NCBI GenBank assembly: GCA_017633675.1
Contig: JAGBOW010000085.1
Coordinates: 1-32,044, forward strand
Direction of reading: 5' to 3'
DNA from: a bacterium
Lineage (GTDB): Bacteria; Cyanobacteriota; Vampirovibrionia; Gastranaerophilales; Gastranaerophilaceae
DNA: 32,044 nucleotides
Positions 3,913-26,425 of this stretch are shown one piece after another. The position numbers and the translations under genes are program-made. Positions within the stretch are counted from its first letter, which is position 1; the number at the start of each line of letters is the position of its first letter. A model generated the notes under the pieces. The model did no database searches and was not told where the DNA came from. It saw only the letters and a program-made list of their open reading frames with translations.

Positions 3913-4706
3913 CAACAGCACTGAATTATAATATAGATTTACCCGATTTAGGTTTAGGAAAAAATCAAAAAAGTGAAGGTATCGGAATTTTGGTCGATAT
4001 GGCCAAAGCCGGAAAAATTGATCCTTGGAATATTGATATTGTTGATGTTACGGATAAATACCTCGCACACATGGTTGAAATGAAATCCCAAAATCTTAGG
4101 GTTACAGGGAGGACTTTTCTTTTTGCGGCTATTCTTGTAAAATTGCAATCCAATGTTCTTGAAGGTATTGATATAATGCAGTTTGACCCGCAAGAACCCG
4201 AACCTCAGTTTGATGATGACGGATTTATTGCGGATTATGACGACTATGTACCCACAAACAATGTAATTTCTATTGATGAGGTTTTGCAGAGAAGAACAAG
4301 TGTCAGATTAAATCATAATCGTGTCGTAACTTTGCAGGATTTGATAAGACAATTGCAATTTTACGAAAAATTAGACAGAAATGAAACTTTAAAAAACAGG
4401 CAGGAGAGGGCAAAACGCAGAGTTCAGTCATATTCAAGACTTACATCTGATGATATTGTTAACCTTGCGCAAGAAGAATACATTGAAACATGCGTTGCAA
4501 CTCTGAAAGAAAATTTAATTCAGATTTTTGAAAAGAATGATAAAATTGAATTGAATGAACTTACACTTTTGGGAATGGATAAAATCAGCGCATATATTGC
4601 GTTATTGTTCTTAACTGTTAACACGGATTACAGTCTGGAACAGGAAGAATTTTATTCCGATTTGTATGTGGTAAAGGGCGGTAAAGATGAACACGGAGCA
4701 GCTTAA
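3909..4706 (+). CDS. scpA: Segregation and condensation protein A (kleisin)
   Basis: ScpA is the kleisin that bridges the two SMC heads and recruits ScpB. The 265 residues are normal for the family. Seen: the N-terminal region typical of ScpA (GIGILVDMAKAGKIDPWNIDIVDVT), a second conserved block (FLFAAILVKLQS), an acidic linker around 92-115 (rich in Asp and Glu) and a C-terminal winged-helix part (LNELTLLGMDKISAYIALLFL). The start is coupled to the smc stop through ATGA, and the 3' end overlaps scpB by 20 nt. Confidence 0.96.
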   Translation: MTTALNYNIDLPDLGLGKNQKSEGIGILVDMAKAGKIDPWNIDIVDVTDKYLAHMVEMKSQNLRVTGRTFLFAAILVKLQSNVLEGIDIMQFDPQEPEPQFDDDGFIADYDDYVPTNNVISIDEVLQRRTSVRLNHNRVVTLQDLIRQLQFYEKLDRNETLKNRQERAKRRVQSYSRLTSDDIVNLAQEEYIETCVATLKENLIQIFEKNDKIELNELTLLGMDKISAYIALLFLTVNTDYSLEQEEFYSDLYVVKGGKDEHGAA

Positions 4707-5205
4707 ATCAAGAATTGAGGCGGTTTTGTTTATTACCGCAAGAGCGATTTCATTAGATGAAATTGCAACTATTCTTGGTGAAGAAACCGGAAATGTTGAA
4801 GAAGCGATATTAGAGCTTATTATGGATTATTCCGCAAGAGACGGGGCATTAGAAATTGATGATGAAAACGGTTATATTTTACAGGTAAAAGATGAACACA
4901 TGGATTTGGTGGAACTTCTTTGCCCTGTTGATATAAAACCGGCTGTTTTGAGGACACTTTCCGTTATAGCTTTAAAAGAGCCGATAAGACAAACCGAATT
5001 AAAAGAATTAAGAGGGTCAAACACTTATGAACAGGTTCAGGAACTTGTTGATAAGGGGCTTATTGCTAAGATAAAAGATAAAAACGGAAGAAGTTTTAAT
5101 TTAAAAACCACTCCGAAATTTGCGGAATATTTCAAATTAAAAGGTGATACACGCTCTCTTGCAAAAATTCTGGAAATTGATAAAGGTGTAAAAGATAATG
5201 AATAA
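4687..5205 (+). CDS. scpB: Segregation and condensation protein B
   Basis: ScpB is a tandem winged-helix dimer that binds ScpA in the SMC complex. The 172 residues are slightly shorter than common homologues (about 180-200). Seen: the opening LKSRIEAVLFITARAISLDEIATILG, and the second winged helix with LRTLSVIALKEPIRQTELKELRG followed by LVDKGLIAKI. The start ATG 4687 lies inside scpA and the end overlaps the following protease gene by 8 nt, so four genes form one coupled unit. Confidence 0.95.
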   Translation: MNTEQLKSRIEAVLFITARAISLDEIATILGEETGNVEEAILELIMDYSARDGALEIDDENGYILQVKDEHMDLVELLCPVDIKPAVLRTLSVIALKEPIRQTELKELRGSNTYEQVQELVDKGLIAKIKDKNGRSFNLKTTPKFAEYFKLKGDTRSLAKILEIDKGVKDNE

Positions 5206-6463
5206 AAAATTAATTTTTTGTAGCATTCTGGTTATTATCTGTGCATTGGTTTACAGATTTTTGCCGAATTATTTTTATGTACAGGGCAAACTTAACTTTA
5301 ATCGGAAAAATTACGAAAAAGCATACAATTATTTTACAAAGGCGCATAGTATTTATAAGAATGATAAAGATTACAGATATTATTATGTTCAGACCATGTT
5401 AAAAATGAAACCTACAAAGGAAATCCAGCAGGAATTGTTTAAAATTTCAACGGATTCAAAGGACGATTCCGCACATGCTTCCGCAAAAAGACAGGTTAAC
5501 AGATGGAAATACGGTGTATTGCAAAATATCGGAAATAATTATATAGAGCAAGTTCCGATTGACAAAAAGATAATGCGTTGGTCAAGTTTTCCGATTAAAT
5601 ATACTATTATAAACAGTACGGGCGAAGTTCTCCCTGATTATTACAGAAGAGAGATTTTGAGAGCATTGGGACAATGGCAGAGTTCAACAGGTTTTTTAAA
5701 ATTTGCCGAAACAACCGATAAAAGTAACGCAGATATAATTTATGAAATTAATAAGCTTCCGGATAATGTTTGTGAAGGTAATGCTTGCCGATTTGTTCTT
5801 GGCTTTACAACATCTGATTACAAAGGCAAAATATTAAATAATATGAAAGTTATATTGTATGACAAAGATCCTTTTGGCAGATATTTCCCCGACAAAGACT
5901 TATTTAATACCGTTTTGCATGAAACCGGACACGCATTAGGTATAATGGGACACAGCTATAATGAAGATGACATAATGTATATGTCCGCAGAGCAGGAAAA
6001 TATTTACACAGCTCACAGGAGTTATTTCCAGTATCTTTCATCTAATGATATAAATACAATTACCTTATTATATAAACTTATTCCGGATATAACCGATACT
6101 GATGAAATTGATACCGAAGGACTTGTTTATGCACCTATAATATTGGGCACGGAAGAAGAGATTTCAAACAGGAAAGTTAAAGAGGCAAAAAATTATATAA
6201 AAAATGCACCTGAGTTGGCAGGCGGCTACATTGATTTAGGAATAGCTTATTCCGAGTTAAAAAGAACCGATGAAGCGCTGGAAGCCATGCATAAAGCATA
6301 TTCGCTGTCTAAAACAGATAACGAAAAATATGCATCATTGTATAATTTGGCTTTGATTTATATGAATACCGGTGATACACGTAAAGCAAAGGAATATGCC
6401 TTAAAAGCAAAGCAAATTTCCGATACGGAAGAAATCAGAAAATTAATTTTAAGTATTAAGTAA
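5198..6463 (+). CDS. Membrane-anchored matrixin-like (M10-type) zinc metalloprotease with TPRs
   Basis: A predicted zinc peptidase of 421 residues. Seen: an uncleaved N-terminal membrane anchor (about 4-24, IFCSILVIICALVYRFL), a TPR-like helix pair (about 28-65), a catalytic domain with HETGHALGIMGH (241-252) followed by a Met-turn DIMY (258-261), and two C-terminal TPR units (about 340-415). The third zinc histidine is one position later than in the standard HExxHxxGxxH. The domain most likely faces outside the cytoplasm. It resembles the gene at 25628 in the segment before the catalytic site (KIMRWSSFPIKYTI versus RIMRWTFMPLKVYI). It overlaps scpB by 8 nt; SD-like AAAGGTG is at 5181-5187. 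Substrate unknown; a role in segregation is only suggested by position. Confidence 0.82.
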   Translation: MNKKLIFCSILVIICALVYRFLPNYFYVQGKLNFNRKNYEKAYNYFTKAHSIYKNDKDYRYYYVQTMLKMKPTKEIQQELFKISTDSKDDSAHASAKRQVNRWKYGVLQNIGNNYIEQVPIDKKIMRWSSFPIKYTIINSTGEVLPDYYRREILRALGQWQSSTGFLKFAETTDKSNADIIYEINKLPDNVCEGNACRFVLGFTTSDYKGKILNNMKVILYDKDPFGRYFPDKDLFNTVLHETGHALGIMGHSYNEDDIMYMSAEQENIYTAHRSYFQYLSSNDINTITLLYKLIPDITDTDEIDTEGLVYAPIILGTEEEISNRKVKEAKNYIKNAPELAGGYIDLGIAYSELKRTDEALEAMHKAYSLSKTDNEKYASLYNLALIYMNTGDTRKAKEYALKAKQISDTEEIRKLILSIK

Positions 6464-10079: not shown

Positions 10080-10703
10080 ATGATACCTAAAATCAAAAAT
10101 CTTACATCATCTAAAGTTAATTTAAAGGATTATAAAGACTTGGTAGAAACTATTGCAAAGGTTGAATATCAAAAGTTTTCCAATTCGCATTTAATTGATA
10201 TCCCCGAATTAATTAATATAGGAAATCATACTTTATATATTTTGTTTAAAAATCATTCACCTGAGGAATTTAATAATACTTATTTGTCGACTGCAATAAA
10301 ATGGGCAATAAGAAATGAAGTCCGCAGACGCTACAAATGGTATTCTCTAAAAAACAAACGACAACAAATGCTTGAAGAAGGTGAAGATTTAAGAGAAGAA
10401 GTTTATAAAACGATTCTTTCAATTGACGAAATGCAAGATGCAGAAGTGCCTGCCCAAATTAAATCAGATGACAAAAACCCCGAAGAATCAATTGAACTTA
10501 CCGAACTGAAAGCCGAAATTATTGAATCAATGAAAAAACTTCCGCAAAGAGAAAGAGAATTAATTGAATATAAATTTTTTAAGGATAAAAAATTAAGAGA
10601 AATTGCAGATGAGTTCGATATTTCTCAATCAAGGATTTCCAGAATAATTCAGTCGGGACTTGATAAAATAAAGAAAGATTTAAAAAAACAGGGGATAATT
10701 TAG
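10080..10703 (+). CDS. Sigma-70 family RNA polymerase sigma factor (alternative type)
   Basis: A 207-residue sigma factor with regions 2 and 4. Seen: region 2-like segment FNNTYLSTAIKWAIRNEVRRRYKW (about 75-97), an acidic charged linker, and region 4 with LPQRERELIEYKFFKDKKL then the helix-turn-helix REIADEFDISQSRISRIIQS (about 178-197). The small size excludes the primary sigma; group 3 or 4 is likely. No anti-sigma gene is adjacent. The ribosome site is poor (AGGA near 10063). Its TAG overlaps the GTG of gcvPB by one base, an unusual partner for a sigma factor. Confidence 0.85.
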   Translation: MIPKIKNLTSSKVNLKDYKDLVETIAKVEYQKFSNSHLIDIPELINIGNHTLYILFKNHSPEEFNNTYLSTAIKWAIRNEVRRRYKWYSLKNKRQQMLEEGEDLREEVYKTILSIDEMQDAEVPAQIKSDDKNPEESIELTELKAEIIESMKKLPQRERELIEYKFFKDKKLREIADEFDISQSRISRIIQSGLDKIKKDLKKQGII

Positions 10704-11836
10704 TGAAAACAATATTTGAAAAGAGTAATGGTGTTTCAGGAATTACGTTAACGGATAAAAATGAAACCTTGAATTTTATTGATGAAAAATTTTTGAGGAA
10801 AAGTGAAATCGGACTCCCTCAAGTTGGAGAGTTAACTGCTATGCGCCACTACAAAGAACTGTCCGACAAAAATTTCTGTATTGAAAAAGGGTTTTATCCT
10901 CTGGGTTCCTGCACAATGAAATATAATCCGAAAGTTAATGAACTTTTGGCAGGTTTGGAAAATTATACAAATCTCAATCCTTTAAGTGATGATGAGGACT
11001 GTCAGGGTGCATTGGAGTTAATGTATAAACTTCAGGAAGCATTAAAAAAGATTACGGGAACGGATACTGTTACACTTCAGCCAGCAGCGGGTGCACATGG
11101 TGAATTAACCGGCATGATGGTTATAAAAAAATATTTTGAAGTAAAAGGAGAGAAAAGAAAAAAAGTTATTATTCCGGATTCTGCTCACGGTACCAATCCT
11201 GCCAGCGCGCATTTGTGCGGATTTGAAATTGTTCCCGTAAAATCGAACGAAAAAGGACAGGTTGATATTAAAGCATTGAAAGAACTTATTGATTCTGATG
11301 TCGCTGCAATAATGATGACAAATCCTAACACTTTGGGAATTTTTGAAGAGAATGTTTTGGAAATTTCAAAATTGATGCACGAAAACGGTTCATTATTATA
11401 TTATGACGGCGCAAATTTCAATGCAATTATGGGATATACAAATCCAAAACTTATGGGATTTGATGTTGTTCATATTAATTTGCACAAAACTTTCTCAACT
11501 CCTCACGGAGGCGGAGGACCAGGAGCAGGCCCAGTCGGGGTTGTTGAAAGTTTGAAAGAATTTTTACCCGCACCAATCATTGATTTTGACGGTGAAAAAT
11601 ATTTCAGAAATTACAATTTGAAAAATTCAATCGGCAGTGTAAAAGGGTTTTTCGGTAATTTCGGTGTACTAGTAAGAGCTTATGCATATATTCTAATGAT
11701 GGGCAAAAATTTGAAAGAAGCAAGTGAAAATGCCGTTTTAAATGCAAATTATCTGAAAGAAAAGTTGAAAGGTGCATACCTTTTGCCATTTGACGAACCT
11801 TGTATGCATGAATTTGTATTGTCAGGCGAAAAATAA
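10703..11836 (+). CDS. gcvPB: Glycine dehydrogenase (decarboxylating) subunit 2, truncated by an in-frame TAA
   Basis: This is the N-terminal 377 residues of the PLP-binding half of P-protein, which decarboxylates glycine and passes aminomethyl to H-protein. Seen: EIGLPQVGELTAMRHYKELS, PLGSCTMKYNPK, PAAGAHGELTG, DSAHGTNPASAHLCGFE and the PLP lysine in LHKTFSTPHGGGGPG (Lys262). The frame stops at TAA 11834-11836 right after HEFVLSGEK, where homologues continue. The same frame goes on with [14 protein letters not shown] and the family's C-terminus to 12133, so one base substitution separates this from a normal 475-residue protein. GTG start with GGGG (10691-10694) upstream. gcvPA, gcvH and gcvT are not in the window. 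Confidence 0.92.
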   Translation: MKTIFEKSNGVSGITLTDKNETLNFIDEKFLRKSEIGLPQVGELTAMRHYKELSDKNFCIEKGFYPLGSCTMKYNPKVNELLAGLENYTNLNPLSDDEDCQGALELMYKLQEALKKITGTDTVTLQPAAGAHGELTGMMVIKKYFEVKGEKRKKVIIPDSAHGTNPASAHLCGFEIVPVKSNEKGQVDIKALKELIDSDVAAIMMTNPNTLGIFEENVLEISKLMHENGSLLYYDGANFNAIMGYTNPKLMGFDVVHINLHKTFSTPHGGGGPGAGPVGVVESLKEFLPAPIIDFDGEKYFRNYNLKNSIGSVKGFFGNFGVLVRAYAYILMMGKNLKEASENAVLNANYLKEKLKGAYLLPFDEPCMHEFVLSGEK

Positions 11837-12133
11837 CATAAAGAATCAGGGGTTTCTACACTCAATATCGCAAAAGCACTTATGGACGAAAACACACACC
11901 CGCCAACGGTTTATTTCCCGTTGATTGTTCATGAGGCGATAATGATTGAACCGACAGAATCGGAAACAAAAAAAGTTTTGGACGATTTTGTTAATGTAAT
12001 GCTGAAAATTGCGAATGAAGCAAAAATTAATCCTGAAAAAATATTATCAGCACCGCACACAACACCGGTAAAAAGACTTGACGAAACATTAGCGGCTCGT
12101 CATCCGAATTTAAAATATACAGAGAAACTATGA
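11837..12133 (+). pseudogene. gcvPB: C-terminal remainder of gcvPB after the in-frame stop
   Basis: Ninety-eight codons in the same frame as the upstream gene complete it: [39 protein letters not shown] and [20 protein letters not shown] are conserved C-terminal blocks of P-protein subunit 2. The first ATG (11882) has no ribosome site and lies inside a conserved block, so independent translation is unlikely to give a functional product. The terminal TGA overlaps the ATG of the next gene by 4 nt, so operon architecture is intact and the lesion looks recent or artefactual. Confidence 0.85.
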
Positions 12134-15090: not shown

Positions 15091-15143
15091 AACGATACGG
15101 TCTTATCGCCTTAACGTCCTATTGCCTTATCGCCTTATATCGC
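15091..15143. repeat. Tandem octamer repeat CYTATYGC before the AsmA-like gene
   Basis: After AACGATACGG come CTTATCGC, CTTAACGT, CCTATTGC, CTTATCGC and a stretched CTTATATCGC, in 8-bp register. The flank and first unit closely copy the array at 121-139. The rest of the 14994-15184 gap holds nothing recognisable apart from the ribosome site GAGGGA (15175-15180). Confidence 0.7.
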
Positions 15144-15184
15144 ATATCTATTTTCATGCTAAGATATCGTTAACGAGGGATATT

Positions 15185-16756
15185 ATGTTGAAAAAATTTT
15201 TGATTACGTTTGGGGTTTTTATATTTGTTTTGTATGCGCTGTTTTTATCTGCGCCTTTGTTACTTACTAATTTGATAAATAATTATGATATTCCGAAAAT
15301 TGTTGAAGATGCCTGCGGGTACAAATTAAAAATCGATAATATTAAACTTATTACTACTCCAAAACTGACGATTGGCGCAAAAATCGGTCATTTGGATTTG
15401 GCACTTCCTACAGGTGAAATTTTCCTGACAGCAGATAATGTCAACGGAAAATTATCCATAATCCCGTTAATCGCAAAAAAAATTGAAATTGACACAATTA
15501 GTGCGGATAATATTAATCTCAACTTAAAAATAAAAAAAGACGGACATTTTTTGATAGAAGATTATATCCCTCAATCAGAACCCGATAAAGCGCAAGAGTC
15601 GATAACTTCGCTCCCTTTGGGCTTAAAATTATCCAATCATCTTCCCGATATAAAAATCAACAATTATAATATTTCATTCATTGATACTTCGGACAAAACT
15701 TATTCAATTTTCGGAAACAAATTCTACATACAGGATTTTATACTGAATAAAAAAGTAAAAATCACCGCAGATGGCAAATTTCAACTCCTCGACAGGGAAC
15801 AATTCAGCTATGATATAAAACTTTTGAACAAAATCATGCCTGATATCGACCTAAACGACCTTGTTTTTGCGCAACAGACGGAAATGTCGGTTCAGCCACC
15901 TCACCCCACCCCTCTCCCATTGGAAGAAGGAGCTGTAAAACAGCCTGTAAATATTATAGACATATTCAACGCAATTTATAAAAACGGCATTACTGCCGAT
16001 TTAATCGCTGATGTCAAGACTTCAGGCACTTTGGAAAACATAAATTTTGACGGAAAAGCAAATATTACAAATATTTCTGTCGGAGTGGACGGAAAACCTT
16101 TACCTCCGAGCAACGCAGACATAAAACTAAGCGGAAACAAAATAAAATTGTATGCAAAACTGTTTACCGCAAAAGATGAAATTACGGAATTCGTAATGAA
16201 TTCCACCACAGGAAAAAATCCCAAAATCGACCTGAATTGTAAATCAAATGCAAAATTTAAAAGTCTAATTGATTTAGCGGACAGTGTTGCAAAAACTTTC
16301 GGGCGAAATGATTTAGACACAATCTCTGCAACAGGCGGAATTGATGCGGATTTTTCAATAAAAACGGATTTGAAAAAACTTGAAACTTCGGGGTATTTGA
16401 AAATCCCTTCTGCCTCATTGAATTACAAACTCTACAACGCAAATATCGAAAAAATCTTTGCGGATATTCGGTTTGCAAATAATTTAATCGACATAAAAGA
16501 TGCTGGTTTTACAGTAATGGGACAACCTTTAACATTAAAAGGTACGGTTTCTCAAGATGCAATTGCGAATATAACGGTAATTGCGGACAAATTACATCTT
16601 AAAGAACTCCTAATCACCATCGGACAGGCAGGATTACTGAAAGATAACGATATAAAAAGCGGTACAATTAACCTTAATGTTCTTTTGAAAGGTAAATTAG
16701 ACAAAATAATTCCGAAAATCAATGTTTCAGTTGATAATTTGAACATAAAAAAATAA
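15185..16756 (+). CDS. AsmA-like envelope protein, N-terminal part (frame ends at an A7 run)
   Basis: The first 523 residues of a very large AsmA-family protein. Such proteins are inner-membrane anchored, span the periplasm and are linked to lipid transport and outer-membrane assembly. Seen: N-terminal membrane anchor (about 3-26, FLITFGVFIFVLYALFL), then the AsmA pattern of alternating beta strands (GYKLKIDNIKL, PKLTIGAKIGHLDLALP, DNVNGKLSIIPLIAKKIEI). Residues 238-250 (PPHPTPLPLEEGA) are encoded by an inserted repeat. ATG 15185 is preceded by GAGGGA at 15175-15180; an in-frame ATG at 15122 would lie in the octamer repeat. The frame closes at TAA 16754-16756 directly after AAAAAAA (16747-16753); dropping one A joins it to the next frame. 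Confidence 0.85.
   Translation: MLKKFLITFGVFIFVLYALFLSAPLLLTNLINNYDIPKIVEDACGYKLKIDNIKLITTPKLTIGAKIGHLDLALPTGEIFLTADNVNGKLSIIPLIAKKIEIDTISADNINLNLKIKKDGHFLIEDYIPQSEPDKAQESITSLPLGLKLSNHLPDIKINNYNISFIDTSDKTYSIFGNKFYIQDFILNKKVKITADGKFQLLDREQFSYDIKLLNKIMPDIDLNDLVFAQQTEMSVQPPHPTPLPLEEGAVKQPVNIIDIFNAIYKNGITADLIADVKTSGTLENINFDGKANITNISVGVDGKPLPPSNADIKLSGNKIKLYAKLFTAKDEITEFVMNSTTGKNPKIDLNCKSNAKFKSLIDLADSVAKTFGRNDLDTISATGGIDADFSIKTDLKKLETSGYLKIPSASLNYKLYNANIEKIFADIRFANNLIDIKDAGFTVMGQPLTLKGTVSQDAIANITVIADKLHLKELLITIGQAGLLKDNDIKSGTINLNVLLKGKLDKIIPKINVSVDNLNIKK
15890..15940 (-). repeat. GC-rich repeat fragment inside the AsmA-like gene
   Basis: On the minus strand this reads CCAATGGGAGAGGGGTGGGG then TGAGGTGG, resembling widespread intergenic elements of the GGGAGAGGGTTGGGGTGAGG type. 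In the gene it is read in frame as PPHPTPLPLEEGA, a peptide unlike the surrounding beta-rich sequence. Confidence 0.55.
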
Positions 16757-16799: not shown

Positions 16800-18659
16800 A
16801 TGAATGATAAAGATATATTGATTAACAATTCAGATATTTTCCTTAACAATTCTAAATTCGGTTTATACGGAAAAATTACTGATTACATAACAAAAAATAT
16901 TAATTTTGATATTAATTTTAACGGAAATTTAATTGCAAACGATATTAAATCCTTTATTCCAAAAGAATTCAGGAGCGAAGTTACGGGAGCGGGTGCAGTT
17001 CCTCTGACCGTAAAAGTTACGGGTAACGACAAAAATCAGGACATAAGTTTCAATATTAAAGGAACTCCGCAAAATCATGTTGCAATACTTTCCGTTAACG
17101 AATTAAAAAACAAAACAACGGAAATAAAAGGCGATATAAAAATCAACGGGGAAAGTCTGACTTTTTCAAATACGGGAATTTTCTCAAACGGTACGCCGAT
17201 TGCATATCTCAAAGGCGGTGTGAAAGATTTATACAAAACCCCAAAATTAAACCTCAACTTTTCGACAGTTAAAAATATTTCTATGGTAATTCCGTTTTTC
17301 AAAAAGTCAGATATGATAATAGGCTTGAATGTCGATATTACGGGAAATGCGCTCAATCCGTATTTAAAAGGAACGGTTACAATTCCTTCCTTAAAAATAC
17401 CTGAAATGCTTACTACATTGGAAGATTTAAGTGTTTCTCTGAACGGACTAATTGCAAGAGGTAAAAGCACTTTGAAAAAACTTACTTCCGGCGGAATTGT
17501 TGCCGAAAATTTAACAACGGACTTTAATCTTACGAATAATATTTTGTATCTGAAAAACTTTTCGGGAGATGCGTTTGAGGGTAAAACAAGCGGAAATATT
17601 TCTTATAACATAGTTAACGGTCATATCGGGGTTGAGATTAAAGGGTCTGATATGAACGCAGAAAAAGCTATTGCGGGAGCTGCGGGAATTAAAAACGCAC
17701 TGTCGGGCAAACTCGGATTTAATGCGAATGTAACTTTGCATGGCGCAACAGACGTTGAAATGATGAAAAATCTAAAAGGCAAAGCGTCTTTTGAAATTAC
17801 AGACGGTGAGCTTGGAAATGTCGGACGTTTTGAAAATTTAATCTTAGCGCAAAACCTGATGTCAAATCCTGTTTTAAAGGCTGGAATACAGTCAATCAGA
17901 GCTTTGCCGACAATAAAAAATACTTCAAAATTCAAGACAATTAACGGTAATTTGACTTTTTCGAACGGGTGGGCAGATTTGACCCCTTTCAAAATGTCGG
18001 GTTCAACCATGTCTTATTATATTACGGGAAAATATAACCTCATAAACGGTACGGCAAATGTTACTGTTTTGGGCAGAATTTCGGCAGAGGTCGTAAAACT
18101 TTTAGGTCCGTTGGGTGAGCTTTCGGCAAGCAAACTGGTATCATTAATACCCGGAATAGGCAGCACTACAGCAAAATTAGTTCAGGCAATTACAACTAAC
18201 CCATACGGAGAAAAGATTTCGGAAATTCCTCCTCTATCTTCTGAAAGTACAAATTATAAAGATTTTAAAGTTCAATTAAACGGAGGGATTGAAAGCACAT
18301 CTTCGGTTAAATCTTTCAAATGGTTATCGGTTTGCGATACTTCTGAAATTGAATCATTGACTGTGAAAGAACAAATTCAACTGACAAAAGATGTCATGAA
18401 AGAAACAAAAGATAAGATTAATCAGGAGGCAAAAGAAGCGGTTCAGCAAAAAATTGATGCTATAAACAAACAATTTGCCGACAAAAGGCAGGAAGCTCAA
18501 CAGGCTAATGAAGAATTAAAAAACTCTGTTGAAGGTTTAAAAAATCTTTTCAAAACACCGAAACAAAATCCTCAGCCTCAAACCGCTGAACCTGAAGTAA
18601 AACAACTAACAGAGCCACAATCCTTAACGGGAGAAAATTCCGAAACCGGTCAAAATTAA
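16800..18659 (+). CDS. AsmA-like envelope protein, C-terminal part (same gene as 15185-16756)
   Basis: 619 residues from the first ATG. The frame is open from 16749, and its codons upstream of this ATG (KPFNISVSTPNLKIS) continue the strand pattern of the N-terminal part, so this is the rest of one protein of about 1157 residues. Seen: repeated AsmA-type strands, an AsmA C-terminal-like domain around 290-440 (LSGKLGFNANVTLHG, LKGKASFEITDGELG, MSGSTMSYYITGKYN), then LGPLGELSASKLVSLIPG, and a charged C-terminal coiled coil (about 530-600) with a Pro/Gln tail. ATG 16800 has no ribosome site, which supports frameshift over a separate gene. Confidence 0.82.
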   Translation: MNDKDILINNSDIFLNNSKFGLYGKITDYITKNINFDINFNGNLIANDIKSFIPKEFRSEVTGAGAVPLTVKVTGNDKNQDISFNIKGTPQNHVAILSVNELKNKTTEIKGDIKINGESLTFSNTGIFSNGTPIAYLKGGVKDLYKTPKLNLNFSTVKNISMVIPFFKKSDMIIGLNVDITGNALNPYLKGTVTIPSLKIPEMLTTLEDLSVSLNGLIARGKSTLKKLTSGGIVAENLTTDFNLTNNILYLKNFSGDAFEGKTSGNISYNIVNGHIGVEIKGSDMNAEKAIAGAAGIKNALSGKLGFNANVTLHGATDVEMMKNLKGKASFEITDGELGNVGRFENLILAQNLMSNPVLKAGIQSIRALPTIKNTSKFKTINGNLTFSNGWADLTPFKMSGSTMSYYITGKYNLINGTANVTVLGRISAEVVKLLGPLGELSASKLVSLIPGIGSTTAKLVQAITTNPYGEKISEIPPLSSESTNYKDFKVQLNGGIESTSSVKSFKWLSVCDTSEIESLTVKEQIQLTKDVMKETKDKINQEAKEAVQQKIDAINKQFADKRQEAQQANEELKNSVEGLKNLFKTPKQNPQPQTAEPEVKQLTEPQSLTGENSETGQN

Positions 18660-18847: not shown

Positions 18848-18890
18848 CATGGACGAAAAAGGTTTACTGGTAAATATGAGGAATTTAAAA

Positions 18891-20162
18891 ATGAGAAAAC
18901 TTATTTCAGCGGGAGCAATTGCTGTATGCTTGTTAGCATTCACATCAATCCCATCATTGGCTGCAAAATCTATCGCTGATGTCAGCGAAGGTTACTGGGC
19001 AGCTCCGGAAATCGTCAGTGTAGTAAATGACGGTGTTATGTCTTTGTCAGGTAACAAATTTAATCCTGAAGACAATATGACAAGAGTAGAGTTTGTTACG
19101 GCTTTATTGAAAGTTTTATCAAACGAAAACCTGAATGTTAACATCAGAAATCAGTTCTCTGATGTTACGGAAGAAACACCCGGATACGCAAACATTTTGC
19201 GTTCTCAACAACTTGGTTTGGTTTACGGGTATCCGGACGGAACTTTCCAACCGGAAAGAGTTTTATTGAGAGATGAAGCTCAATCAGTTATCAGCCACAT
19301 TACAAAAGACATGGTTGCCGACAAATCAATCTTGAAGAACTTCTCGGATGCATCTTCAATCCCGGCATGGGCTACCAATGTTTACGCAAAAACTATCAAC
19401 TATGGTATTTATGTAAACTATCCTAATGCTAACGAATTAAGACCGACTGAAAACTTGTCAAGAGCAGAAGCTGCTGTTCTTTTAGCAAGATTGAAATCAA
19501 AATTGAGCCTTGTTAAAACTCAATATGTTGGCGGTGCTACTACTACAGAACACTTAAATGTAAAGAAAAATGCACCTTCTAATGAAGTTTATGTAAACAA
19601 CATTCAAAACGTAATTGCTGAAGGTAATGTTTTGGTTGTAGCTTTTGATGAAAAATTCAAATCAGAAGAACATCAGGCAGGTGATATCGTTACATTCTAC
19701 AACAAAGAAGATATCGTTACTGAAGAAGGAACTCTTGTAATTCCTGCAGGTACTAAATTTGTTGCACAAATCAACGAAATTCAAGACCAAAAATGGTTTA
19801 ACAAAAATGCAAGAGTATATCCTCAATTATGCAAAATCGTTTTACCTAACGGCAAACAATTAGCATTCAATGCTAAACCGTTCACTAAAGACTATTCTTT
19901 AAAAGAAGGTCCTTGGATGACAGCAGGTAAATTAGCATTATGCACAGTTTCAGGTGGTGCAGTCGGTACAGGTGCCGGTGTCGGTTTCGGATTTATTCCT
20001 GATCCTGACAGAATCGGTACAGGTATTGCTATCGGTGCTCCTGTAGGTGCTGCTGTAGGTTTGGCTACAGGTTTGATTACACCGGGTCTTAAATACCACG
20101 CAAAACAAGGTGAAGAAATTTACGTTATTTTGTTAGATAACGCAGCAGTTACTAAACAATAG
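18891..20162 (+). CDS. Secreted SLH-domain envelope protein with C-terminal glycine-zipper segment
   Basis: A 423-residue exported protein. Seen: signal peptide MRKLISAGAIAVCLLAFTSI ending PSLAA (about 1-25), three SLH repeats beginning near 27 (SIADVSEGYWAAPEI), 88 (QFSDVTEETPG; GYPDGTFQPE) and 150 (NFSDASSIPAWA), then a beta-rich domain (about 215-345, KNAPSNEVYVNNIQNVIAEG; VPAGTKFVAQI-like strands) and a glycine-rich hydrophobic stretch around 354-398 (GTGIAIGAPVGAAVGLATG). SLH domains attach proteins to peptidoglycan-linked polymers. ATG 18891 has GAGGA (18878-18882) 8 nt upstream and yields a clean signal peptide; ATG 18849 and 18876 are rejected because of the promoter and spacing. A strong terminator follows, so it is a single-gene unit and probably well expressed. 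It is not a cyanobacterial SLH porin: no beta-barrel domain is present. Confidence 0.88.
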   Translation: MRKLISAGAIAVCLLAFTSIPSLAAKSIADVSEGYWAAPEIVSVVNDGVMSLSGNKFNPEDNMTRVEFVTALLKVLSNENLNVNIRNQFSDVTEETPGYANILRSQQLGLVYGYPDGTFQPERVLLRDEAQSVISHITKDMVADKSILKNFSDASSIPAWATNVYAKTINYGIYVNYPNANELRPTENLSRAEAAVLLARLKSKLSLVKTQYVGGATTTEHLNVKKNAPSNEVYVNNIQNVIAEGNVLVVAFDEKFKSEEHQAGDIVTFYNKEDIVTEEGTLVIPAGTKFVAQINEIQDQKWFNKNARVYPQLCKIVLPNGKQLAFNAKPFTKDYSLKEGPWMTAGKLALCTVSGGAVGTGAGVGFGFIPDPDRIGTGIAIGAPVGAAVGLATGLITPGLKYHAKQGEEIYVILLDNAAVTKQ

Positions 20163-20324: not shown

Positions 20325-21800
20325 ATGACTACTTATCCAAGTATTTATGCAAATAAATATGGTGATTATTACACCTTGGGCGCATTTGCAGCAGGTGCTG
20401 GAAATGCTCAGGATAGTGATATAGGCTCTCAACTTGCTGTCGGTGCAATTTTGGGAGGATTACCACTTGTAAAAGGTACAGTCTGGGACGGCCCGAAATG
20501 GTTGTATGATAATTGGGGACATTACGGTAAAACATGGGAAAGCATGAAAGATGCCCATAAAGCTCAAAAAGATATTGCAAAAACTTTTAAAAAAGCTGTT
20601 ACCGTAAGTGATAAATGGTGGGGTAGTGCTTATAACTGGACATTGCGCAGTGCAAGATTGCAGGAATATCAAGGCTGGCAAGCAAAACCGATTCAAGCAA
20701 GAATAAATTGTGATAAAGCTCGTTATAAAGAGTTATTGAAAGATAATCCGGCAAAAGCAAGATTATATAGAATGACTTATAGAAAATCTAACAGATTAAT
20801 TGATGAAGCATACAAACCTGTTAGAGAAATACTTGAAAAAACAAAAACATTGCAAGGCGCAGAATTACGAACAGCGTTAAAAGAACTTGAATATGCAGGA
20901 TATCATGCCGAATTGAAAGTTCTTCAGGGTAGAAAAGCCGAAACAATAAAATCAGTTGGTAAATATGCAAAAGCTTGGAATTTTGTTAAACAAAAATCAG
21001 GTTATAACAAACTAAACAGAGGTTTGTTGAAAGGCATGACTTACGGTATAGACGATACCGGAAAAGTTATTGCAGGAAAAGGTGATAAAATCGGTGCAAA
21101 AGCATTGAGAACAGTTAGCAAAGGTGCAAAAGGCGGAGGTCTTTTGACTGCCGGTATCGAAATGGCTTTTGAAACACCTGAAATTATTGAAACATACAGT
21201 AAATTAGGCGCAGCAAAAGGTACAAAACAACTTGGAAAATCCGCAGCTACAGCAACAGCATCGGCAGTCGGCTGGGTTGTCGGAGCAAAAGTCGGAGGTA
21301 TTGCAGGTGCAAAAATCGGCGGAATAATCGGTTCATTCTTCGGACCCGGACCGGGAACTGCAATCGGAGCGGCAATCGGCGGTATAATAGGTGTCGGATG
21401 CGGTATTTTAGGAAGCTGGTTATGTCATAAGGGTATGAAATCGCTTATGGGCAAATCCGAACTTGAAAAGGCAAAAGATGAACAAGCTCTTGCATTAGCA
21501 AAAAAAGCAAGTGAATCCGATGAAGGTAAACAGGAATTACTGGAGGCGACAAAAGCACAAGCAGATGCTCAAGGCGGAGTAAGTGATCAAAAAATTATTG
21601 ATACTTATACAAAATTACTTAATGAACGACAAACATCACTTACTCAAGCTCAAACTTCTGATTTAACAGCACAAACATCAGACTCTATTCAGGTTGATGA
21701 TAAAAAATCAGCATTACTTCAACAGTTAGAAAATTTTAACGTATACACTTCACAATATCAGGCATCAAATCCGTTTAATAATCAAAGTATATTCTCTTAA
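20325..21800 (+). CDS. Glycine-zipper protein of unknown function
   Basis: A 491-residue protein I do not recognise. Seen: an N-terminal Gly/Ala segment (YTLGAFAAGAGNAQDSDIG; LAVGAILGGLPLVKG), a basic, Trp/Tyr-rich helical middle (about 50-290, for example WWGSAYNWTLRSARLQEYQ), a long glycine zipper around 313-367 (VGAKVGGIAGAKIGGIIGSF; GTAIGAAIGGIIGVG) able to form a membrane hairpin, and a Gln/Ala/Asp-rich tail (about 375-491). No Sec signal peptide. AGGGGA precedes ATG 20325 by about 5 nt. The architecture (zipper hairpin plus long helical domain) recalls pore-forming or secreted effector proteins, but that is speculation. Flanked by terminators on both sides, so a single-gene unit next to the SLH gene, which also ends in a glycine zipper. 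Confidence 0.8.
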   Translation: MTTYPSIYANKYGDYYTLGAFAAGAGNAQDSDIGSQLAVGAILGGLPLVKGTVWDGPKWLYDNWGHYGKTWESMKDAHKAQKDIAKTFKKAVTVSDKWWGSAYNWTLRSARLQEYQGWQAKPIQARINCDKARYKELLKDNPAKARLYRMTYRKSNRLIDEAYKPVREILEKTKTLQGAELRTALKELEYAGYHAELKVLQGRKAETIKSVGKYAKAWNFVKQKSGYNKLNRGLLKGMTYGIDDTGKVIAGKGDKIGAKALRTVSKGAKGGGLLTAGIEMAFETPEIIETYSKLGAAKGTKQLGKSAATATASAVGWVVGAKVGGIAGAKIGGIIGSFFGPGPGTAIGAAIGGIIGVGCGILGSWLCHKGMKSLMGKSELEKAKDEQALALAKKASESDEGKQELLEATKAQADAQGGVSDQKIIDTYTKLLNERQTSLTQAQTSDLTAQTSDSIQVDDKKSALLQQLENFNVYTSQYQASNPFNNQSIFS

Positions 21801-21814
21801 TATCCTCATAAATT

Positions 21815-21838
21815 AAAGCTCCCTATTGGGAGCTTTTT
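21815..21838 (+). terminator. Terminator after the glycine-zipper gene
   Basis: Nine-bp stem AAAGCTCCC/GGGAGCTTT (21815-21823 and 21828-21836), loop TATT, followed by TT and more T. The convergent small gene ends 2 nt to the right, so the hairpin may serve both strands. Confidence 0.85.
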
Positions 21839-21839
21839 C

Positions 21840-22013
21840 TTATACAGGTGTAATATTGAAATCTCTTTCGGATTTAAATGTTGAAGATTCAAGAACATTC
21901 TTAATAAATCGTTCAATCTTAATTTCCATTGAAGAAATTTCGTCTTTTAAAGCCTGATAGCTTTCTTCTTTCACATCTTGTAATGCCTTCTCAAAAATCT
22001 CATCATGATACAT
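21840..22013 (-). CDS. Small charged helical protein, 57 residues, unknown
   Basis: A short minus-strand gene. The ATG (complement of 22011-22013) is preceded by AAGGAGA with an 8-nt spacer, a near-ideal ribosome site. The product begins MYHDEIFEKALQDVKEESYQ, continues ALKDEISSMEIKIERFIKNV and ends ITPV. Heptad-like spacing of hydrophobic residues suggests a coiled coil or a small helical adaptor. No signal peptide, no membrane segment, no Cys. It is divergent from the uridine-kinase-like gene and convergent with the glycine-zipper gene. Function unknown; conservation in relatives would settle that it is real. Confidence 0.7.
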   Translation of the reverse strand: MYHDEIFEKALQDVKEESYQALKDEISSMEIKIERFIKNVLESSTFKSERDFNITPV

Positions 22014-22173
22014 TAAACAAATCTCCTTAAATTAAAATTGTAATACTTCACATATTCCCAAAACGGCATTTTTTAAACAGAACTTTAATAAAAATAATAA
22101 TATTGTTACATTTTTTATCATTTCTACAAAATAAAAAAATTTTAATGTAGAATATTAGGATATTGGAGATAGA

Positions 22174-23010
22174 ATGGTTACCGATTTTCTGACAAGTTAT
22201 GATTATTATTCAAGCAGACGTGATATGGAACTGATTTCTGCAATAGTTGATGCCCTCAAAAAGATACTGGAAGAAGATAAGTTGCAAACACAACCTCTGT
22301 TTTTAAAAACGTCCGAAAATCTTATTCTAAATATTGCAAGGAAAGTTGTTCAGGAAAAGAAAAAGACGTTTTTAATAGGGATTACAGGTGAAAGCGCATC
22401 AGGAAAAACGGTTTTTGTTGATAATACAATTCATGCCTGTGTAAAGAAAGAGAATCAAGGAATTTATACAGTAATCAGATGTGATGATTATTATAAAGAT
22501 ACCTCAAAAGAACTTCAGGAAGCAGGAAGCTATGAAGAATTATTTAAAACAGGTTTCAGCTTTGATACACCTGATGTAATTGATTTGGATTTGATGAAGT
22601 ATCATTTGACAGAATTAAAGCAGGGCAGAGAAGTTCGCTCTCCGAAATATGATTTTGTTACTTGTGTATCCGATCCGAACGGGGATTTAAAAAAGCCTGC
22701 AAAAGTTATTTTGACGGAAGGTTTGTATGTTTTAAACGAAAGTGTCAGAGATGTCATGGACGTTAAAGTATATGTCTATACACCTTTGGAAGTTATAAAA
22801 GAACGCTGGTATAAGAGAGCCGCTTTACGGGGAAAAACAGGTGCTGCCGCTGATATGCAGTTCGCTGATGTAAACAAAACCGCTCAGCAATATATAAGAC
22901 CTGCTTATCAAATATCAGATGCAGTAATTAACGGAATGGTTTCTCAAAAATATATTCAGGAAATTACGGATAAAATTCTTCAAACATTAAGAGAAATTGT
23001 AGTTTACTAG
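22174..23010 (+). CDS. Uridine kinase / phosphoribulokinase-family P-loop kinase
   Basis: A 278-residue kinase of the uridine kinase-PRK superfamily, which in its classical members phosphorylates uridine or cytidine for pyrimidine salvage. Seen: Walker A GESASGKT (72-79), VIRCDDYYKD (substrate-binding Asp-Asp-Tyr-Tyr), FSFDTPDVIDLDLMKYHLTE, SPKYDFVT, VILTEGLYVL (Walker B region) and an Arg-rich lid near KERWYKRAALRGKTG. It carries about 65 extra residues before the kinase core compared with E. coli-type Udk (about 210), with a mostly helical look, so the substrate may differ from uridine. GGAG lies about 7 nt before ATG 22174. Single gene. Confidence 0.82.
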   Translation: MVTDFLTSYDYYSSRRDMELISAIVDALKKILEEDKLQTQPLFLKTSENLILNIARKVVQEKKKTFLIGITGESASGKTVFVDNTIHACVKKENQGIYTVIRCDDYYKDTSKELQEAGSYEELFKTGFSFDTPDVIDLDLMKYHLTELKQGREVRSPKYDFVTCVSDPNGDLKKPAKVILTEGLYVLNESVRDVMDVKVYVYTPLEVIKERWYKRAALRGKTGAAADMQFADVNKTAQQYIRPAYQISDAVINGMVSQKYIQEITDKILQTLREIVVY

Positions 23011-23107
23011 CAAAATTTTTGTTTAAAGTTTTTGTTATCTCCACATCAAATCAATCTTCAAGGGTAACTCAAATTTTAATATCTGTTCTTGAAAAAATCG
23101 TAATATA

Positions 23108-23127
23108 AAAGAGCCTTTCGGCTCTTT
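23108..23127. terminator. Bidirectional terminator between convergent genes
   Basis: Eight-bp stem AAAGAGCC/GGCTCTTT with loop TTTC. On the minus strand it is followed by TTATATTA. The stop codon of the minus-strand Cys-rich gene (23126-23128) overlaps its right arm. Confidence 0.8.
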
Positions 23128-23494
23128 ATTTCCCACAAGAGGTACATCTCGGCTGTATCGGCTGAATGTAAATCATATCGTTACAGCTTGTGCATTTGTT
23201 TTGGTGGAATGTCTTTTTACATGACGGACAGTTCTTTATCTTTACTTTTGAACATTCGTTGCAAGCTGTCCTTTTTACTTTGCACTTGTTACAGTTTTTA
23301 AATCCTGTGAACGGATTTAAGCTGAAACTTGTCCTGTTCTCACCGATTCCCAAATATGGCAGAGGGTTAAGGTAAGATACAAAAGACATTGTTTTTGACT
23401 GATTACAACATTCCCAAGTCGCCGCAAATGAGGTTTGTGCAGAGAATGCCAATGCACCAATTATGGCCAGTGTAACAAATAAATCTTTTTTCAT
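23126..23494 (-). CDS. Secreted Cys-rich protein with five CxxC pairs
   Basis: A 122-residue exported protein I cannot assign to a family. Seen: Sec signal peptide (KKDLFVTLAIIGALAFSAQT, ending SFA-A near 24), a Cys-Cys pair in TWECCNQ (29-30), a hydrophobic/aromatic middle (SYLNPLPYLGIGENRTSF) and a C-terminal array of CxxC knuckles: CNKC, CNEC, CPSC, CTSC, CTSC, spaced by basic stretches. Twelve Cys in all. The pattern is that of zinc ribbons, which normally work in the cytoplasm; here it would be in the periplasm or outside, where the Cys could bind metal or form disulfides. SD AAGGAG is 8 nt before the ATG. A dyad at 23531-23553 lies upstream of its start. Confidence 0.8.
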   Translation of the reverse strand: MKKDLFVTLAIIGALAFSAQTSFAATWECCNQSKTMSFVSYLNPLPYLGIGENRTSFSLNPFTGFKNCNKCKVKRTACNECSKVKIKNCPSCKKTFHQNKCTSCNDMIYIQPIQPRCTSCGK

Positions 23495-23530
23495 ACAAAA
23501 ATCTCCTTTTCCATTTTTATTTTAAACTTT

Positions 23531-23553
23531 TTGTATACATTTACTATATACAA
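23531..23553. promoter_or_regulatory. Dyad TTGTATA-N9-TATACAA upstream of the Cys-rich gene
   Basis: Two perfect 7-bp arms (23531-23537, 23547-23553) separated by 9 bp lie about 40 nt upstream of the start. An overlapping shorter dyad TATAC-AAGT-GTATA lies beside it. The symmetry suggests a repressor site; no clear -35/-10 pair was resolved. Confidence 0.35.
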
Positions 23554-23598
23554 GTGTATAATGGAGATTATTCTTTCAACTTAATCCGAAAGGTTATA

Positions 23599-25178: not shown

Positions 25179-25513
25179 TAGAAATTAAGTCCCGGAATAT
25201 TGATACCGCCTGTAATGGCTTTCATTCTTGAGCTTGATTCTTCCGAAGCTTTTTCACTTGCATTGTTAATTGCTGTTGTAATTAAATCTTCAAGCATTTC
25301 TAAAGTATCAGTATCAACTGATGACGGGTTTTCGGAGTTAATAGCCTCAGGTTTCAATTTAATTGATTTAAATTTTCCTTGACCGTCAAAGTTAACAAGA
25401 ACTGCACCGTTTCCTGCTTCACCTGTAACCGTCAAGTTTTCAAGCTCTTTTTGTGCATCTTTAACTTTTTGCTGTAAATTTTGAGCCTGTTTCATCATTT
25501 GCATAATATTCAT
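25178..25513 (-). CDS. ybaB: YbaB/EbfC family nucleoid-associated protein
   Basis: A 111-residue DNA-binding protein commonly encoded just before recR. Seen: the opening MNIMQMMKQAQNLQQKVKDA, LENLTVTGEAGNGAVLVNFD (the conserved G.G...V...G block), LEMLEDLITTAINNA, and a C-terminal Gly/Ile-rich tail (GGINIPGL). SD AAGGAGA lies about 7 nt before the ATG. It leads the minus-strand ybaB-recR-oppF operon. Confidence 0.95.
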   Translation of the reverse strand: MNIMQMMKQAQNLQQKVKDAQKELENLTVTGEAGNGAVLVNFDGQGKFKSIKLKPEAINSENPSSVDTDTLEMLEDLITTAINNASEKASEESSSRMKAITGGINIPGLNF

Positions 25514-25539
25514 AATCTTCTCTCCTTAGTCTGTATTTT

Positions 25540-25583
25540 GCCTCCCTTGTTAAAGGGAGGGGAACGCTTTAGCGGTGGAGGGA
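25540..25583 (+). repeat. Hairpin repeat with GCCTCCCTT/AAGGGAGG core
   Basis: GCCTCCCTT-GTTA-AAGGGAGG followed by GGAACGCTTTAGCGG and TGGAGGG. The outer parts match the minus-strand reading of 181-220 while the inner hairpin differs. It separates ybaB from the divergent matrixin gene. Confidence 0.6.
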
Positions 25584-25615
25584 TTTATTCCCTGTTTTTT
25601 CTTCCGATTTTATTA

Positions 25616-25621
25616 TATAAT
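25616..25621 (+). promoter_or_regulatory. -10 box placed for a leaderless matrixin transcript
   Basis: A perfect TATAAT ends 6 nt before ATG 25628, so a transcript would start at or next to the start codon. No SD precedes that ATG. The -35 is weak (TGTTTT at 25593-25598 with a 17-bp spacer). Confidence 0.4.
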
Positions 25622-25627
25622 AAAATC

Positions 25628-26425
25628 ATGCAAAAGTACACTTATGTTGCGGAATCTTTAAAAAACGGCAGGATAATGAGGTGGACATTTATGCCGTTGA
25701 AGGTTTATATTGCGCCGATGAACTTTTATTCAAAACAGGGTCAGGATATGAGATACAGGTCATACGTAATTCGTGCGCTAAAAGAATGGGAAACCTCAAC
25801 AAAGGGTAAAATAAGATTTAAAGTTGTAAATACGCTTTTGGAATCTAATGTAAATGTTGACTGGAAAAGGGTTGAGAGAAAAGCATTAGGGCATTGCTAC
25901 TTCAATTATGACGCATCAAACAGGTTATATGGTGCGGAAGTGGCAATAGGCCTGACGGAAGGATTAGTACATGCCGATTATATGGATGAAAATGAGGTTT
26001 ATCACACCATTTTGCATGAAATCGGTCATGCCGTAGGTTTGGGACACAGCCATAACCCGAAAGATATAATGTATACACCGCATCAAAAAGGGGTAAATAA
26101 AATTTCAGAAGGTGACAGTTTAACAATTAATTGGCTATATACTTTACCGCAAGGCGCAACGACAAAAGATGTTGCCTCAAAATATCAAATTTCAGGCGCA
26201 GATATTGATGAGATTATCGCAAAATTTATAAACAAAAAAACACCGACTGAATTTGAACAGGTAAAAGCGTCAATAAAGAAACCCAAGCGGGATTTACAGG
26301 AAGAACAAGATGCTATTGCAAATTTAAGAGGTATCACATGTCTTTGCAAAATGTGCATATTTCCGAAGAAATGCAAAAATTCTTTAAAAATAATAAGCCG
26401 AACAGATAAATGTAATTCTCCTTAG
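25628..26425 (+). CDS. Second matrixin-like (M10-type) zinc metalloprotease, no export signal
   Basis: A 265-residue predicted zinc peptidase. Seen: RIMRWTFMPLKVYIAPM near the N-terminus, the zinc motif HEIGHAVGLGH (130-140, standard HExxHxxGxxH) and Met-turn KDIMYTP (Met148). A helical charged region follows. From ATG 25628 there is no signal peptide or membrane helix; extending upstream to ATG 25481 would translate the intergenic repeat, so I reject that. It looks like a paralogue of the gene at 5198 without anchor and TPRs. The last 28 or so residues (CLCKMCIFPKKCKNS...) are Cys-rich and unlike the rest; a different frame there looks more natural (see 26338-26409). Substrate and location unknown. 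Confidence 0.82.
   Translation: MQKYTYVAESLKNGRIMRWTFMPLKVYIAPMNFYSKQGQDMRYRSYVIRALKEWETSTKGKIRFKVVNTLLESNVNVDWKRVERKALGHCYFNYDASNRLYGAEVAIGLTEGLVHADYMDENEVYHTILHEIGHAVGLGHSHNPKDIMYTPHQKGVNKISEGDSLTINWLYTLPQGATTKDVASKYQISGADIDEIIAKFINKKTPTEFEQVKASIKKPKRDLQEEQDAIANLRGITCLCKMCIFPKKCKNSLKIISRTDKCNSP
26338..26409 (+). CDS. Possible 23-codon overlapping ORF, or the true C-terminus of the matrixin after a frameshift
   Basis: ATG 26338 is preceded by AGAGG with a 6-nt spacer. The frame reads MSLQNVHISEEMQKFF then KNNKPNR and stops at 26407-26409. Its ordinary composition contrasts with the Cys-rich tail of the overlapping matrixin frame. Either a very small coupled gene or the shifted end of the matrixin. 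Confidence 0.3.
   Translation: MSLQNVHISEEMQKFFKNNKPNR

Follow-up and report, generated by a model that had tools for sequence, protein, structure and literature searches.

In strict anaerobes, extracytoplasmic disulfides are generally expected to be few. Disulfide cross-linking is mentioned for the chlamydial envelope in one account (PMC6752827), and a VKOR-DsbA fusion of 'Clostridium sp. CAG:768', said in its report to resemble the Synechococcus enzyme, is described there as complementing E. coli dsbA dsbB (PMC12453122). The SLH domains of diderm Terrabacteria are described as binding the cell wall and as able to tether the outer membrane, the example given being OmpM (PMC10628300), and Melainabacteria are reported to carry genes for a Gram-negative envelope (PMC4040986). 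Here we analyze a stretch of 32,044 nucleotides (the window) from a 1.9 Mb genome, which carries a gene for a small exported cysteine-rich protein, CYS, whose usual upstream neighbor codes for SLH-GZ, a protein that combines SLH domains with a TrbI-like glycine-zipper (GZ) domain at its C-terminus. CYS is a real, conserved family of the Gastranaerophilales, non-photosynthetic gut cyanobacteria of the class that we take to be Melainabacteria (Vampirovibrionia).

The CYS gene and its protein

A sequence-only reading of this DNA had placed an exported protein with 12 cysteines, ten of them as CxxC in the last 55 residues, at 23126-23560. That interval corresponds to the CYS gene and its promoter region, and the signal peptide and cysteine arrangement were confirmed on the following open reading frame:

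23126..23494, minus strand: coding sequence of CYS, 122 aa (ATG at 23494, stop TAA at 23126-23128)
23423..23494, minus strand: signal peptide, residues 1-24, with an A-x-A type cleavage site (by a crude rule, not SignalP)
23282..23326, minus strand: near-invariant core FSLNPFTGFKNCNKC, residues 57-71 (from the motif and column counts)
23135..23293, minus strand: five CxxC pairs, C68/71, C78/81, C89/92, C101/104 and C117/120 (from the sequence)
23503..23508, minus strand: Shine-Dalgarno-like AAGGAG, 8 nt 5' of the ATG (read from the sequence)
23107..23125, minus strand: terminator-like hairpin and T run after the stop, AGAGCC-GAAA-GGCTCT-TTT (read from the sequence)

The signal peptide, called on a basic start, a hydrophobic window and A-x-A, ends SFA/A and leaves a mature protein of about 98 residues, in which all ten paired cysteines lie between C68 and C120. 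When we shuffled the mature sequence 100,000 times, the mean was 1.34 CxxC and five were reached in 0.3% of the shuffles. No histidine comes directly after any of the five CxxC (CxxCH, 0/5), so the pairs are not haem c sites.

Searches with the protein gave little. For the window protein, Pfam had no family to offer at E≤1, hence no thioredoxin-fold match, and no CpxP/Spy profile match was found for it; a PDB sequence search with the CYS profile yielded chance-level matches (best E 0.17). AlphaFold, run on CYS with 21 sequences, gave a pLDDT of 45.3 and a single helix, the signal peptide, but no fold, so disulfide bonding is unreadable from the model. No publication evidently about the CYS family was found in the literature, judged mostly from listings. 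The protein provides a marker, and a hypothesis of function, for a family outside the coverage of the Pfam and NCBIfam models.

Spread and conservation of CYS

A search with the window protein found CYS in 32 of 33 same-genus genomes and, among 25 others from the taxonomic family, in 6. The exception within the genus is G016, whose contig stops 227 bp past the matched end of the SLH-GZ gene. A profile built from 21 sequences (A1) matched 92 of the 382 genomes of the class, and because all 92 belong to one taxonomic family, CYS is a family-restricted gene. Nearly all genomes with CYS have one copy of it, G026 carrying a second, marginal match that contains stops.

Collapsing identical proteins reduced 93 CYS sequences to 51 distinct members (L052-L061 were excluded as repeats). 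Three real orthologues (L025, L087 and L089) were lost to a regular expression in the orthologue and upstream set, to which L094, L095 and L109 likewise contributed no sequence. The first two of these belong to rejected matches: that in G269, among the 92, looks spurious (a 389-aa ORF, L094), and the lone order-level match, in G069, likewise reads as spurious, a 403-aa ORF that appears transposase-like (L095).

The core pattern LNPF[TK]GF[KR][NQS]C is present in 50 of the 51 distinct members. We looked for orthologues without a signal peptide, and the crude rule assigned one to 51 of 51, start codons having been chosen to favor M(K/VK/NK) starts. The mature cysteine count is even in 42 of the 51 and odd in 9. 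Across the five pair positions of the 30 closest members, both cysteines are present in 140 cells, neither in 7 and a single one in 3, so the pairs behave mostly as units. Both the export and the weight that the sequence-only reading had given to the pairs are therefore supported across the family. Pairs 1-3 are nearly always present in these 30 members, pairs 4 and 5 are lost singly, and the last pair is CxxC in some members and CxC in others. The most divergent members retain only the signal peptide, the core and an altered cysteine tail; LNPxPY stretches N-terminal to the core, which resemble partial core repeats, are missing from them.

Gene neighborhood and the SLH-GZ protein

Two further features describe the surroundings of CYS in the window:

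18849..20162, plus strand: SLH-GZ, SLH domains and, at the C-terminus, a TrbI-like glycine-zipper domain; usual upstream neighbor of CYS (from profiles and synteny)
20325..23494, no strand assigned: block of a glycine-zipper gene, a uridine-kinase-like gene and CYS, inverted relative to relatives (from comparison with L234 and L236)

In all 21 relatives' loci, CYS lies directly 3' of SLH-GZ on the same strand, 158-202 bp past its matched end, and a uridine-kinase-like gene converges on CYS from the opposite side; pyruvate kinase neighbors the locus in 17 of the 21. Of 17 CYS loci that are more divergent, 13 also keep the SLH-GZ neighbor, the others being L092, L097, L103 and L108. In the window, CYS lies 3 kb from SLH-GZ because the three-gene block is inverted; the close relatives L234 and L236 share, on the other side of that block, two genes that we take to be miaA and an AsmA-like gene. 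Terminator-like palindromes stand between SLH-GZ and CYS in many relatives, which suggests that the two are transcribed separately.

The SLH repeats of the window's SLH-GZ are recognized by Pfam (PF00395, 6e-19). Its GZ domain has no TrbI match of its own, although 15 of 24 members of the GZ family match TrbI, presumably a VirB10-like family, at E≤0.1 (best 4.1e-7). With 18 sequences, AlphaFold folded the SLH part and not the GZ part (pLDDT in the 20s-50s), and a PDB sequence search with the GZ profile gave chance-level matches (best E 0.5). GZ orthologues beside CYS can be without any cysteine (L096, L105), so a disulfide between CYS and GZ is not required. TrbI-like GZ proteins that lack SLH and have gained many cysteines were also seen (L147:4274-5107 and L211:2842-3633, with 10 and 12 cysteines in their domains).

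Elsewhere in the window, an in-frame TAA at 11834-11836 splits a glycine dehydrogenase-like gene, presumably gcvPB, into ORFs 10703-11836 and 11882-12133, which are in the same frame with the sequence reading on between them; it may be either an assembly error or a broken gene. A large ORF that we take to be AsmA-like is apparently split over two frames (15122-16756 and 16800-18659). A Matrixin-like protease is encoded at 25481-26425 (PF00413, 9.4e-12), and a second zincin-like ORF was recognized by eye at 5198-6463 (HETGHALG).

Other exported cysteine-rich genes at the SLH-GZ locus

SLH-GZ was searched for in 28 genomes, comprising 19 family genomes without a CYS match and 9 more distant ones, and 30 loci were viewed. 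One of them (G038) holds a diverged CYS, overlooked by the profile, and another (G036) an exported protein of 173 aa and 18 cysteines with no detectable relation to CYS. In G046, two exported proteins, one of 112 aa with 24 cysteines and one of 135 aa with 28, are encoded beside a GZ protein without SLH, at a locus that still adjoins pyruvate kinase; G396 has kept pyruvate kinase and the two cysteine-rich genes, with no GZ match. A second sample of 18 GZ loci, picked regardless of cysteines, added one adjacent case, G356 (188 aa, 20 cysteines), and, in G378, a homologue at a distance of 1.5 kb; sub-threshold CpxP matches were obtained for the G378 protein (L200, 1.1e-5) and its G356 homologue (L204, 0.0056).

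In G036, G046 and G356, SLH-GZ or GZ is thus followed within 600 bp by exported cysteine-rich genes with no discernible relation to CYS, against a background, by the same rule, of one exported cysteine-rich ORF in 400 kb (14 stretches of G007 and 6 of G291). That single background ORF is L221:5960-6199 (79 aa, 8 cysteines). Most other SLH-GZ or GZ loci have no cysteine-rich neighbor (for example G034, G043, G047 and G068), and a protein of the G046/G042 type is carried by 3 of the 288 genomes from the taxonomic family.

The tandem exported proteins of G042, G046 and G396 are 20-28% cysteine and share a CxWWKxW/F motif (L148:3824-4153 and 4603-4977; L146:4172-5149). To the eye, the window core (FSLNPFTGFKNC) resembles the CxWWKFWxNKNCC motif found in the G046/G042 proteins, and L103 (FSWNIFKGFKNC) points the same way. 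A profile-profile comparison aligned the signal peptides only, so we do not accept the likeness as demonstrated homology.

These loci could be instances of a lineage-specific envelope module, in which an SLH-TrbI-like wall protein is paired with an exchangeable cysteine-rich exported protein (up to 27% cysteine, L148) that VKOR-DsbA would oxidize in an anaerobic habitat, a generalization that we regard as doubtful. On this view unrelated cysteine-rich proteins would swap at one locus, and selection would act on a matrix of cross-linked or metal-loaded cysteines rather than on a particular sequence.

Envelope redox and a proposed role for CYS

VKOR was found in 38 of the 39 genomes searched, the exception being G012, which has CYS. 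The copy in the window's genome is a fusion with a DsbA domain (VKOR 3.7e-20, DSBA 1e-15), which would, judging from its family, be located in the envelope. The presence of this enzyme makes disulfide bonding at least as likely as zinc binding in CYS.

The signal peptide (by rule), the conservation, the neighborhood and the VKOR-DsbA gene are thus shown; an oxidation state, a partner and an envelope role for CYS we infer. Our tentative reading, to which we give somewhat less than an even chance, is that CYS is a disulfide-bonded periplasmic or envelope partner of SLH-GZ, oxidized by VKOR-DsbA, with the FSLNPFTGF core as its contact. CYS would be exported by Sec and its signal peptide cleaved, after which the VKOR-DsbA fusion would oxidize the CxxC pairs in the periplasm. 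The tail, now disulfide-bonded, may then present the near-invariant FSLNPFTGF motif to a partner, probably the neighboring SLH-GZ protein, which would bind the cell wall via its SLH domains while its TrbI-like glycine-zipper domain reaches towards or into the outer membrane. The signal peptides, the mostly even cysteine counts, the paired losses, the VKOR-DsbA enzyme, the synteny with SLH-GZ, the cysteine-rich substitutes at the locus and the TrbI-like GZ domain of 15 of 24 members all favor this reading; it is weakened by the odd cysteine count in 9 of 51 members, by GZ orthologues beside CYS that have no cysteine, by the lack of a fold in the AlphaFold model of CYS, by the many SLH-GZ genes without a cysteine-rich neighbor, by G012 with no VKOR match and by the window's own GZ domain with no TrbI match.

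The main rival is an extracytoplasmic metal binder, whose CxxC pairs would hold Zn(II) or another soft metal, either metallothionein-like or as knuckles, for periplasmic storage or delivery; we consider it possible, on the unlikely side. In its favor, the repeated CxxC are flanked by Lys/Arg, and extracellular CxxC proteins, the Giardia VSPs, are reported in one study to bind zinc, sub-stoichiometrically (PMC2996952). Some orthologues also give zinc-finger or zinc-ribbon matches: among 21 members, zf-C2H2_5 was matched in 6 (best E 0.0036) and HVO_2753 at 0.0073 in Pfam, and PRK14890 Zn-ribbon at 0.0013 for one orthologue in NCBIfam. All of these are sub-threshold, no zinc ribbon or knuckle profile being matched above its curated cut-off by the window protein or by the 21 members (Pfam E≥0.0036), and with nothing at E≤1 for the window protein the label 'zinc knuckle' given to it by the sequence-only reading is not established. 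Ten pair cysteines are, moreover, no multiple of four, single pairs are lost, and a four-Cys site would not survive such a loss without His or water as a substitute, the last pair shifts between CxxC and CxC, and the genome encodes an oxidizing enzyme.

Two other roles appear improbable. CYS might be a redox-active thiol protein, engaged in electron or disulfide exchange and not structural, as CxxC is the thioredoxin-type motif and the pairs behave as units; neither a thioredoxin-fold match in Pfam for the window protein nor a predicted fold (the AlphaFold model has a pLDDT of 45 only) bears this out. Slimmer still is the chance of a secreted antibacterial or host-directed peptide: the protein is small, cysteine-rich, exported and cationic (net charge is positive in 49 of 51 mature proteins), but the gene is inherited vertically, almost always as a single copy, and keeps its synteny across genera, its core is invariant, and no immunity or dedicated transporter partner stands beside it in the relatives' loci viewed.

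A conserved exported protein rich in cysteine, linked by gene position to an SLH wall protein in cells with VKOR-DsbA, would open envelope disulfide chemistry (or periplasmic metal capture) in little-cultured gut cyanobacteria to direct tests with recombinant protein.

The region upstream of CYS

Two overlapping features precede the gene in the window:

23531..23553, no strand assigned: dyad TTGTATA-N9-TATACAA, particular to the window copy (exact match in the sequence)
23519..23548, minus strand: conserved promoter-like element TATAGTAAA-N9-AAAGTTTAAAAT (from upstream regions of relatives)

The dyad noted by the sequence-only reading is exact at 23531-23553, but its proposed significance as a sign of regulated expression is not supported: it is absent from the upstream regions of 50 other orthologues (0/50 at ≤2 mismatches), where the closest match has at least 3 mismatches of 14. 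Its size alone is not unusual either, given 69 perfect 7-bp dyads of gap 3-12 in the window (mean 46, range 27-64, in 20 shuffles). The palindrome is not conserved, and it is probably not a regulatory switch.

What is conserved upstream of CYS is the promoter-like element TATAGTAAA-N9-10-AAAGTTTAAAAT, which the dyad overlaps in the window copy only. Within the last 150 bp, AGTTTA[AG]AAT occurs in 26 of 51 CYS upstream regions (shuffle mean 0.27, maximum 2, in 200 shuffles); the count for TATnGTA[AT]A is 24 of 51 (shuffle mean 1.8, maximum 6), and that for both boxes in order 15 of 51 (shuffle mean 0.01, maximum 1). Eight loci without an M(K/VK) start by rule were excluded from one upstream comparison. 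Most of the window's TATAGTAAA box falls within the dyad, so that the palindrome represents a local variant of the promoter-like region. The long pattern was found in 10 of 32 same-genus genomes, once each and always 5' of CYS, and when the pattern was loosened, 6 genomes yielded 5 matches, of which 4 lay at CYS, and the control yielded 1; no regulon was detected at this stringency (long pattern in 32 genomes, looser pattern in 6). The least probable of the alternatives would have the dyad serve a metal- or redox-responsive regulator of CYS as operator. The dyad's exactness and its overlap with the promoter-like element speak for this; its absence from the 50 other upstream regions and the many dyads of like geometry in the window speak against it.

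A short hairpin lies 3' of the promoter-like box in many relatives, with arm sequences that vary. When 31 leaders of 40-75 nt were scored one by one (the window's leader, being too short, was excluded), the mean was 12.5, compared with 8.9 (sd 0.6, maximum 10.7) in 300 shuffles. These hairpins have 28 distinct 5' arms, and a consensus fold of the leader alignment contained no pairs. This suggests a kept 5' stem-loop in the CYS mRNA of relatives rather than a kept operator.

Comparison with described systems

CYS shares with the small zinc ribbon and zinc-knuckle proteins (HVO_2753-like PF07754, Zn_ribbon_3 PF13248) the repeated CxxC, the Lys/Arg-rich composition and the short length. Unlike them, it is exported and without a match at E≤1, and its pairs vary in number and are lost singly. 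With CpxP/Spy periplasmic chaperones, the likeness consists of the sub-threshold matches of the cysteine-rich L200 (G378) and of L204 at the SLH-GZ locus of G356; no match found relates the window CYS to L200. Chlamydial OmcA/OmcB are, like CYS, exported cysteine-rich proteins of a diderm envelope, whereas CYS has no Pfam match and belongs to a different lineage. The VSPs and high-cysteine membrane proteins (HCMPs) of Giardia are, in the description given, also exported and contain many CxxC, or CxC in HCMPs (PMC2996952), but they are eukaryotic, membrane-anchored, variable families, and the likeness is one of description, with no homology implied. SLH-GZ, for its part, has SLH repeats in common with the OmpM-type outer-membrane tethers, in which SLH is described as joined to an outer-membrane barrel (PMC10628300); in SLH-GZ, a TrbI-like glycine-zipper domain takes the place of the barrel shown for OmpM.
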